64,000 nt of DNA from contig NZ_WUWN01000001.1 of assembly GCF_009846865.1 (NCBI RefSeq), positions 186,001 to 250,000 of the forward strand. Direction: 5' to 3'. The stretch is from Puerhibacterium puerhi (lineage in GTDB: Bacteria; Actinomycetota; Actinomycetes; Actinomycetales; Cellulomonadaceae). Shown in pieces: positions 24,895 to 26,175 of the stretch. Positions within the stretch are counted from its first letter, which is position 1. Each line of letters begins with the position of its first letter. Made by a program: the position numbers and the translations under genes. The notes beneath the pieces were generated by a model. It was not told the DNA's origin, ran no database searches, and saw nothing but the letters and a program-made list of their open reading frames with translations.

Positions 24895-26013
24895 TCAGTA
24901 CGCCGTGCCCATGAGGCCGCGGACGTCGGCGAGCGTGGCGTCCGCGATCGCGTTGGCGCGGGCGTTGCCCCGCGCCAGCACCTCGCCGACGACGGCGGGC
25001 CCCGCGGCGACGAGCTCGTGCCGCCGGGCCCGCAGCGGCCGCAGGCCCTCGACGACGGCGTCGGTGACGAGCTGCTTGAGCCGCCCCGCCCCGGCGGCAC
25101 CGACCTGCTCCGCGAGCGCCTGCGGCGTCGTCGCGGCGAAGTGCGCGCCGATCTCCAGCAGGTTCGCGACCTCCGGACGCCGCTCGGGCTCGTAGGTGAT
25201 GTGGCGCTCGGCGTCGGTGCGGGCGCGGCGGAAGAACCGGGCGGTCTCGTCCTCGTCGGCGCGCAGCTCGAGCGCGTTGCCGCGCGACTTCGACATCTTG
25301 CGGCCGTCGTCGCCGAGCACCGTGGGCGACGGCGCCAGCAGCGCCTCCGGCTCGGGGAAGTACGGCCGCGCCGCGCTGTAGCGCTGGTTGAACCGGCGGG
25401 CGACGGTGCGGGTGACCTCCAGGTGCGGCAGCTGGTCCAGGCCCACCGGCACGAGGTTGCCGTGGCAGAAGAGGATGTCGCACGCCTGGTGCACCGGGTA
25501 GGTGAACAGCAGGCCGGACATCCCGCGCCCCTGGCGGCGCTCGGCGTCGAGCGCCTCGGCCTTCACCGTGGGGTTGCGCTCCAGCTCGGCGACCGTCACG
25601 AGCGACAGGAACGGGAGCATGAGCTGGTTGAGCGCCGGCACGGCCGAGTGCGTGAGCACCGTGGTGCGGTCGGGGTCGATGCCGGCGGCGAGCTGGTCCA
25701 GGAGGACGTCGCGCACCGCGGCCGGCAGGTCGCCGGCGTCGTCGCGGTCGGTGATGACCTGGTAGTCCGCGACGACCAGGAACAGCTCGACGCCGAGGCG
25801 CTGCAGGCGAACGCGGTTGGCCACGGTCGCCAGGTAGTGGCCGAGGTGCAGCGCGCCGGTGGGACGGTCGCCGGTCAGGACGCGGAAGCGCGACGGGTCG
25901 CGCGCGATCTCGGCCTCGAGCTCCGCGCTGCGGGCCTGGGCGGCGAGCGCCGACGGCGTGGTGGCGGCGCCGGTGGTCGCGGCGCCGGTGGTGGTGCTGG
26001 TCGTGGTGGTCAT
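24895..26013 (-). CDS. trpS: Tryptophanyl-tRNA synthetase, inducible-type
   Basis: This 372-residue class I synthetase charges tRNA-Trp. The HIGH equivalent is GALHLGHY (residues 53-60) after TGDRP. The KMSKS loop is GRKMSKSRGN near 238. The motif-1 wording GDRPTGALHLGHYL and the Asn-Arg-Val following it are those of the TrpRS branch that contains auxiliary, indolmycin-resistant enzymes in Streptomyces, rather than the GxQPSGxxxxGNY housekeeping type. The first 20 residues are a low-complexity Thr/Ala run. A leader peptide with three consecutive Trp codons lies upstream, indicating tryptophan-dependent attenuation. Whether the genome has a second trpS cannot be seen here. Confidence 0.95.
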   Translation of the reverse strand: MTTTTSTTTGAATTGAATTPSALAAQARSAELEAEIARDPSRFRVLTGDRPTGALHLGHYLATVANRVRLQRLGVELFLVVADYQVITDRDDAGDLPAAVRDVLLDQLAAGIDPDRTTVLTHSAVPALNQLMLPFLSLVTVAELERNPTVKAEALDAERRQGRGMSGLLFTYPVHQACDILFCHGNLVPVGLDQLPHLEVTRTVARRFNQRYSAARPYFPEPEALLAPSPTVLGDDGRKMSKSRGNALELRADEDETARFFRRARTDAERHITYEPERRPEVANLLEIGAHFAATTPQALAEQVGAAGAGRLKQLVTDAVVEGLRPLRARRHELVAAGPAVVGEVLARGNARANAIADATLADVRGLMGTAY

Positions 26014-26015
26014 GG

Positions 26016-26037
26016 GGCTCCCCTTCGGACGGGAGCC
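26016..26037 (-). promoter_or_regulatory. Hairpin covering the trpS ribosome binding site
   Basis: On the coding strand, GGCTCCC and GGGAGCC pair around a 7-8 base loop. The right arm contains the GGGGAG ribosome binding site just before the ATG at 26013. This could add translational control to the attenuator or simply be a GC-rich coincidence. Confidence 0.45.
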
Positions 26038-26068
26038 GCCGACGCGCCGGGGACCACGGACGGCGCGG

Positions 26069-26096
26069 GTCCCGGGCTGCGGCGGCAGCTCGGGAC
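26069..26096 (-). terminator. Candidate attenuator hairpin of trpS leader
   Basis: Coding-strand stem GTCCC(GA)GCTGC - CGCC - GCAGC(CC)GGGAC lies 23 bases after the leader peptide stop. Its GCTGC arm can instead pair with GCAGC of the upstream hairpin, giving the mutually exclusive pairings expected of an attenuator. No U-run follows, as is usual in high-GC actinobacteria. Confidence 0.55.
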
Positions 26097-26118
26097 TCGG
26101 CTCGTCAGGCGCGGCGGG

Positions 26119-26163
26119 TCAGGGCTGCGGAGGCAGCCACCACCAGGACGCGCGCGTGAGCAT
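26119..26163 (-). CDS. Trp-rich leader peptide (MLTRASWWWLPPQP)
   Basis: This 14-codon reading frame encodes three adjacent tryptophans (residues 7-9), about 105 bases upstream of trpS on the same strand. The Trp codons enter a hairpin (GGCTGC CTCC GCAGCC, 26123-26138). That is the classic arrangement in which ribosome stalling at Trp codons changes downstream folding. ATG 26163 has no ribosome binding site but is preceded at six bases by a -10 box TATGCT, consistent with a leaderless start. Ribosome-mediated attenuation is established for the auxiliary TrpRS gene of Streptomyces coelicolor; its operation here is inferred. Confidence 0.75.
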   Translation of the reverse strand: MLTRASWWWLPPQP

Positions 26164-26169
26164 GGGCCG

Positions 26170-26175
26170 AGCATA
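26170..26175 (-). promoter_or_regulatory. -10 box TATGCT of the trpS leader transcript
   Basis: TATGCT on the minus strand ends six bases before the leader-peptide ATG; the -35 region is weak. It is the best -10 match in the trpS-DUF808 divergent region. Confidence 0.5.

Follow-up and report, generated by a model that had tools for sequence, protein, structure and literature searches.

The trp attenuator of Escherichia coli follows a four-segment logic in which adjacent Trp codons overlap segment 1. The same holds upstream of trpS in the window, the 64,000-nucleotide stretch of Puerhibacterium puerhi DNA analyzed here; unlike the window system, that of E. coli serves biosynthesis genes, its 5′ leader is untranslated, its U-tract is clear, and it is not known to have a fifth segment. 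For trpRS1 of Streptomyces coelicolor, an attenuator was reportedly shown by Vecchione and Sello in 2010. The S. coelicolor system and that of the window are alike in their auxiliary TrpRS1-like gene, Trp leader, and alternative hairpins and in the presence of a separate housekeeping trpS. The window attenuator is of the same kind, in a lineage outside the published accounts that we found. Its segment word is GGCTGC, in contrast with CGCTCC/GGCCGTTC in the Streptomyces type, and it differs from Streptomyces-type leaders in having no U-tract after hairpin 3:4 and in having a fifth segment, which is mostly absent from that type.

Seliverstov et al. (2005) described candidate attenuators ahead of trp operons and ahead of Streptomyces avermitilis trpS2 (PMC1262725). 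In the sections of that report drawn on here, which for tryptophan cover the genera Corynebacterium and Streptomyces, the candidates resemble the window leader in their double or triple Trp codons and in the complementary segments common to antiterminator and terminator; their terminators have poly-U, unlike the window, and no segment near the ribosome-binding site (RBS) is described in those sections. In Streptomyces lividans TK24, trpL1 and trpL2 are leaderless leaders, whose translation begins with the first transcribed base; trpL2, which precedes a trpS, is devoid of a U-rich stretch (PMC8079986). The trpL2 peptide (MMTRTCTQLWRAA) has one Trp codon, whereas the window leader has three.

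The window trpS is an auxiliary, TrpRS-II-like gene

A sequence-only reading of the window had proposed looking for a second trpS. The genome does contain two such genes, a housekeeping copy on contig 78 and the window copy, which scored 330 and 216 bits, respectively, against TIGR00233 and whose products are 35% identical. The window gene is the auxiliary one and belongs to a TrpRS-II-like branch. The closest solved structures to its product were those of Deinococcus radiodurans TrpRS II (PDB 1yi8 and 2a4m; E = 3e-60), with which it has in common the GDRPTGALHLGH motif and the Gln of the ADxQ motif. The Deinococcus enzyme is noted for its partnership with nitric oxide synthase (PMC9437257).

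His43 of B. stearothermophilus TrpRS contacts indolmycin, and the H43N substitution leads to resistance (PMC4899734). The residue at this position is Gln in the window protein and in all branch members checked, where the motif reads ADYQVIT (PDYQVIT in one); a Streptomyces housekeeping-type TrpRS has VDLHALT at this site, i.e., His. Judged by its sequence, the window TrpRS has His43 replaced as in indolmycin-resistant TrpRSs, and resistance itself is predicted. Close relatives of the window trpS were found in 75 of 200 genomes of the same family. The one sister species examined has the housekeeping trpS only and no copy of the window gene.

Layout of the trpS leader

Predicted features of the locus are listed in Table 1. 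The 14-codon frame with three Trp codons, six bases past TATGCT, that had been read from the window was found with every element where it had been placed. From the leader stop to the trpS start there are 105 bases on the minus strand, and in folding the leader RNA was more stable than its shuffled counterparts (z = −3.3).

Table 1. Predicted features of the trpS leader region (positions within the window)
Feature	Position	Strand	Remarks
-10-like element TATGCT (TAnnnT)	26170..26175	-	six bases before leader ATG
Leader peptide frame MLTRASWWWLPPQP + stop, 14 codons	26119..26163	-	homologous leaders in 119/187 distinct upstream regions
Leader ATG	26163-26161	-	
Leader stop TGA	ends 26119	-	
Three adjacent Trp codons	26145-26137	-	WWW = codons 7-9
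Segment 1 GGCTGC	26133..26138	-	overlaps last Trp codon; pairs with segment 2, covariation
Segment 2 GCAGCC	26123..26128	-	3′ end right before leader stop codon; pairs with 1 or 3
Segment 3 GTCCCGAGCTGC	26085..26096	-	contains GCTGC; 5′ arm of 3:4; pairs with 2, 4, or 5
Loop CGCC of hairpin 3:4	26081..26084	-	segment 5 pairs with its 5′ part; covariation with segment 5 in the loop columns
Segment 4 GCAGCCCGGGAC	26069..26080	-	contains GCAGC; 3′ arm of 3:4, followed by CCCGCGCC; no U-tract
Segment 5 CGGCGGCTC	26033..26041	-	complement of GAGCTGCCG, 26091-26083 (segment 3 + loop)
RBS hairpin GGCTCCC (26037-26031)/GGGAGCC (26022-26016)	26016..26037	-	from folding; 5′ arm overlaps segment 5
trpS RBS AAGGGGAG	26025-26018	-	inside RBS hairpin
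trpS, auxiliary tryptophan--tRNA ligase, TrpRS-II-like	24895..26013	-	motif GDRPTGALHLGHY; ATG 26013

Conservation and distribution of the leader

Upstream regions of trpS relatives were gathered from named genomes and by whole-genome searches, giving 187 distinct regions. A Trp-run leader 6 or 7 bases past a TAnnnT box was present in 119 of them, while dinucleotide shuffles gave a mean of 0.05 such leaders and a maximum of 1. In 68 thinned relatives, the box was 6 bases (41 cases) or 7 bases (27 cases) from the leader start; the −10 box was the sole conserved part of the promoter, with no −35 box conserved among the relatives. This spacing means that transcription very probably begins at the leader start codon and that the leader peptide is very probably read from a leaderless mRNA. 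Owing to this near-universal spacing, the leaders lend themselves to studies of ribosome stalling on leaderless mRNA.

A covariance model of the leader found a single strong match in the 3.9-Mb genome, the window site, at 50 bits (the next match scored 25.7); with so low a second score, the leader was rejected as a general regulator of other loci in this genome. Rfam families did not match the leader, either in the window at E ≤ 10 or in six relatives at the gathering score. An alignment and covariance model are now available for this class. Across the class, matches to the model include the leaders of Streptomyces trpE, which is preceded by the same four-segment layout, and of a Streptomyces housekeeping trpS. 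More than a hundred relatives share the switch, and predicted attenuation of an inhibitor-tolerant backup TrpRS is widespread among Actinomycetes.

Among 50 named genomes, the leader was present in 17 of the 20 with two trpS genes and in 4 of the 30 with one (Fisher p = 7e-7), an association inflated by close relatives within the set; an independent-pairs test yielded just 3 to 4 such pairs, and the association comes down to few independent evolutionary changes. On the protein tree, about seven gains or losses account for the occurrence of the leader. The leader precedes the sole trpS in four genomes (Austwickia, Propioniciclava, one Georgenia, and Micropruina), which indicates that the attenuator is not confined to backup copies.

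Several individual loci deserve mention. In Cellulomonas humilata (L024:2862-2953), the RNA structure is kept (39.9 bits) and the leader, MSSTTWRRLL, has a single Trp codon, a possible intermediate in loss of control. In four relatives that have no attenuator (L017, L018, L027, and L033), a TAnnnT box lies directly before the apparent trpS start, as if loss of the attenuator had left a leaderless trpS mRNA. An assembly labelled Sphaerisporangium cinnabarinum (L014; QAPD01000033.1) has a trpS almost identical to that of Cellulosimicrobium funkei and groups there in the tree; it is probably mislabelled or contaminated. The label of Xylanimonas cellulosilytica 352_XCEL (L031; JVKM01000015.1) is likewise doubtful; this 2.5-Mb assembly has one trpS without a leader.

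A leader closely similar to trpL2, MTTRTCTQLWWAA, precedes a housekeeping-type trpS. In two Streptomyces-type genomes (L247 and L255), a leaderless leader, MTTRTCTQLWWAA or MTTRTCTQQWWAA, stands before trpS. The L247 gene is plainly a housekeeping-type trpS (SGVKPTGHLTLGNY), so attenuation may apply to both TrpRS copies in that genome.

Alternative helices and the modelled stall

Covariation of helices 1:2, 3:4, and 2:3 was scored in an alignment of 61 diverse leaders. For helices 1:2 and 3:4 together, 84% of cells were paired and two-sided changes numbered 126; the covariation score was 0.282 (0.055 to 0.112 for slid and 0.158 for shuffled alignments). The competing helix 2:3 was paired in 78%, with 50 two-sided changes and a score of 0.267 (0.049 to 0.116 slid). 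Segments 1 to 4 and the choice between 1:2 plus 3:4 and 2:3, as drawn by the sequence-only reading, are present in the window, and the helices covary in its relatives. One exact word of at least five bases recurred in all four segments of 69 of 118 leaders, compared with 0.5 in shuffles, and this word changes between lineages (GGCTGC, GGCCGTCC, or GCCGC).

Stalling was modelled with RNA made up to segment 3 in three states: a ribosome positioned at the first Trp codon, no ribosome, and a ribosome at the stop codon. The probability of 2:3 exceeded 0.5 in 112 of 116 leaders with a stalled ribosome, in 11 of 116 with no ribosome, and in none of 116 with the ribosome at the stop; the window values were 1.00, 0.00, and 0.00, respectively. 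In full-length equilibrium folds, 3:4 won in most leaders even with a stalled ribosome. Switching at equilibrium was rejected, since these folds nearly always keep 3:4 irrespective of the ribosome. Because 3:4 is favored at equilibrium, the switch must be kinetic, as in a classical attenuator.

We consider it highly probable that the auxiliary trpS is controlled by a ribosome-mediated tryptophan attenuator. Transcription would start at or beside the A of the leader ATG, and the leader would be translated from leaderless mRNA. With ample Trp-tRNA, the ribosome would reach the stop and cover segment 2, allowing 3:4 to form and reducing expression of trpS. A shortage of Trp-tRNA, or inhibition of the housekeeping TrpRS, would stall the ribosome on the Trp codons, where it covers segment 1, and 2:3 would block 3:4. 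By analogy with S. coelicolor, Trp-tRNA shortage or indolmycin is expected to induce trpS.

A fifth segment very likely pairs with segment 3 and the 3:4 loop in relatives

Segment 5 lies directly upstream of the trpS RBS. Its pairing was tested in an alignment of 56 leaders chosen as being of the GCTGC type; related sequences are included in the alignments used here, and the shuffles keep this relatedness. Helix 3:5 was paired in 87.8% of cells and scored 0.268, compared with 0.039 to 0.094 when slid and 0.146 ± 0.010 when shuffled. The columns of the 3:4 loop alone scored 0.493 against segment 5 (0.209 ± 0.023 shuffled; 0.061 to 0.154 slid), and these columns, which have the strongest covariation, take no part in the 2:3 or 3:4 core. 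When each segment 3 plus loop was paired with its own downstream region and with swapped ones, the native pairing ranked among the best 5% for 13 of 59 leaders and among the best 10% for 20 of 59, compared with 3 and 8 in a reversed control. Taken singly, 43 of 116 leaders had a 3:5 helix at p < 0.05 against shuffles. The automatic 3:4 finder misplaced a few hairpins (e.g., in Oerskovia-like L128 to L133, L030, and L054), an error that weakens the 3:5 signal and does not inflate it.

The window's own 3:5 helix gave p = 0.08 against shuffles, so its support comes from the family. The 3:4 loop of the window is one base shorter, and a matching change in segment 5 keeps nine pairs. The ground state predicted for the window RNA was not 3:5, and Streptomyces-type leaders were mostly without a 3:5 signal. 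On the strength of the covariation, the helix is very likely to be real across many relatives. Long-range pairing to a fifth segment is apparently undescribed, and covarying 3:5 suggests that some leader-peptide attenuators still decide once the terminator is passed.

The sequence-only reading had also claimed a hairpin that hides the trpS RBS. Such a hairpin is present in the window (p = 0.10 by itself), and the 3′ end of segment 5 overlaps its 5′ arm there and in most of the window's relatives; the clade with leader MKSLVLVWWLPS has a different RBS hairpin that likewise overlaps segment 5. The claim did not carry over to the family, in which RBS hairpins scored barely higher than shuffles (p < 0.05 in 12 of 116 leaders) and showed no covariation, and we rejected it as a conserved feature. 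With segment 5 sequestered, 15 of 41 leaders gained 0.2 or more in RBS openness, a suggestive difference from the 2 of 41 under control masks. As a general effect, freeing of the RBS by this route was also rejected: the overall shift had p = 0.10, and openness in the window went the opposite way, from 0.70 to 0.52.

The missing U-tract and how the attenuator may act

The window has no T in the 8 bases after 3:4, compared with a family mean of 2.6 (1.05 expected); TTTT follows 3:4 in Promicromonospora- and Streptomyces-type leaders. A terminator scan of the window was empty. Attenuation in its transcriptional form needs a U-tract; control by a leader ribosome in general does not. Since 3:4 is not followed by a U-tract in the window genome, intrinsic termination is doubtful there. 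Either termination in the window is U-independent or Rho-assisted, or control has moved to translation, or the system is in decay.

We tentatively propose a five-segment attenuator. Segment 5, on emerging, would invade 2:3 via the freed 3:4 loop and pair with that loop and segment 3, locking segment 3 and holding the RNA out of 3:4 so that it stays ON. Helix 3:5 would also stop the RBS hairpin's 5′ arm from reaching the trpS RBS, which would stay free. By the time segment 5 is transcribed, a terminator directly behind segment 4 can no longer be influenced; 3:5 might act as a latch that couples antitermination to translation, a role that we put forward with some reserve. A single stall would then govern transcription as well as translation, and lineages that have no U-tract would depend on the translational part.

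Purely transcriptional attenuation, as in S. coelicolor trpRS1, is possible too, if short of probable. Segments 1 to 4 would then suffice, 3:4 would terminate in a U-poor or Rho-assisted way, and pairing near the RBS would be incidental. This agrees with the enrichment of U after 3:4 across the family, with Streptomyces-type leaders, in which TTTT follows 3:4 and the 3:5 signal is mostly missing, and with the four-segment layout upstream of Streptomyces trpE. However, four segments alone leave the covariation between segment 5 and the 3:4 loop unexplained, and the window is without any U-tract. That absence would fit mainly translational attenuation in the window lineage, in which 3:4 would have ceased to terminate and access to the trpS RBS would be gated by the leader ribosome via segment 5 and the RBS hairpin. 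The strong local RBS hairpin of the window, its 5′ arm overlapped by segment 5, and the different but also overlapping hairpin of the MKSLVLVWWLPS-leader clade point the same way. Mainly translational control is nevertheless rather unlikely, given an RBS hairpin that does not exceed shuffles across the family and a gain in RBS openness that was not significant overall and ran in the unexpected direction in the window.

Loss of the U-tract could also mean that the window attenuator is a decaying relic and that trpS is now expressed without much regulation. The individual p values of the window 3:5 helix and RBS hairpin and the sister species without the window trpS are consistent with decay, but the Trp run, segments 1 to 4, the distance to the −10 box, and the length of the leader are all preserved, and the change in segment 5 compensates for the shortened loop; we regard a relic as improbable. 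A chance Trp run with chance inverted repeats, for which we found nothing but the high GC content of the DNA, has next to no probability and is refuted by the frequency of the leader in relatives relative to shuffles, by the covariation, and by the single strong match in the genome; absence of the Trp run from close relatives had been named as a sign of chance, and the run is present in them (e.g., WWWLPPQP, WWRLHPQP, and WWWLPSQP).

A similar leader upstream of an acetyltransferase gene

In one further genome, the same layout was seen before a GNAT acetyltransferase gene (L241:101-704; G463:C1:2838549-2839152). The leader, MRNDRANWWRLQ, begins 6 bases past TACGCT, and its 3:5 helix would be formed by GGGCTGCACGG/CCGTGCGGCCC. 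At E ≤ 1e-75, the window trpS has no close counterpart in this genome. A Trp leader with an acetyltransferase was rejected as a conserved system, as 29 other relatives of the gene were without the leader. It may be speculated that an acetyltransferase induced by Trp-tRNA shortage could detoxify a TrpRS inhibitor.
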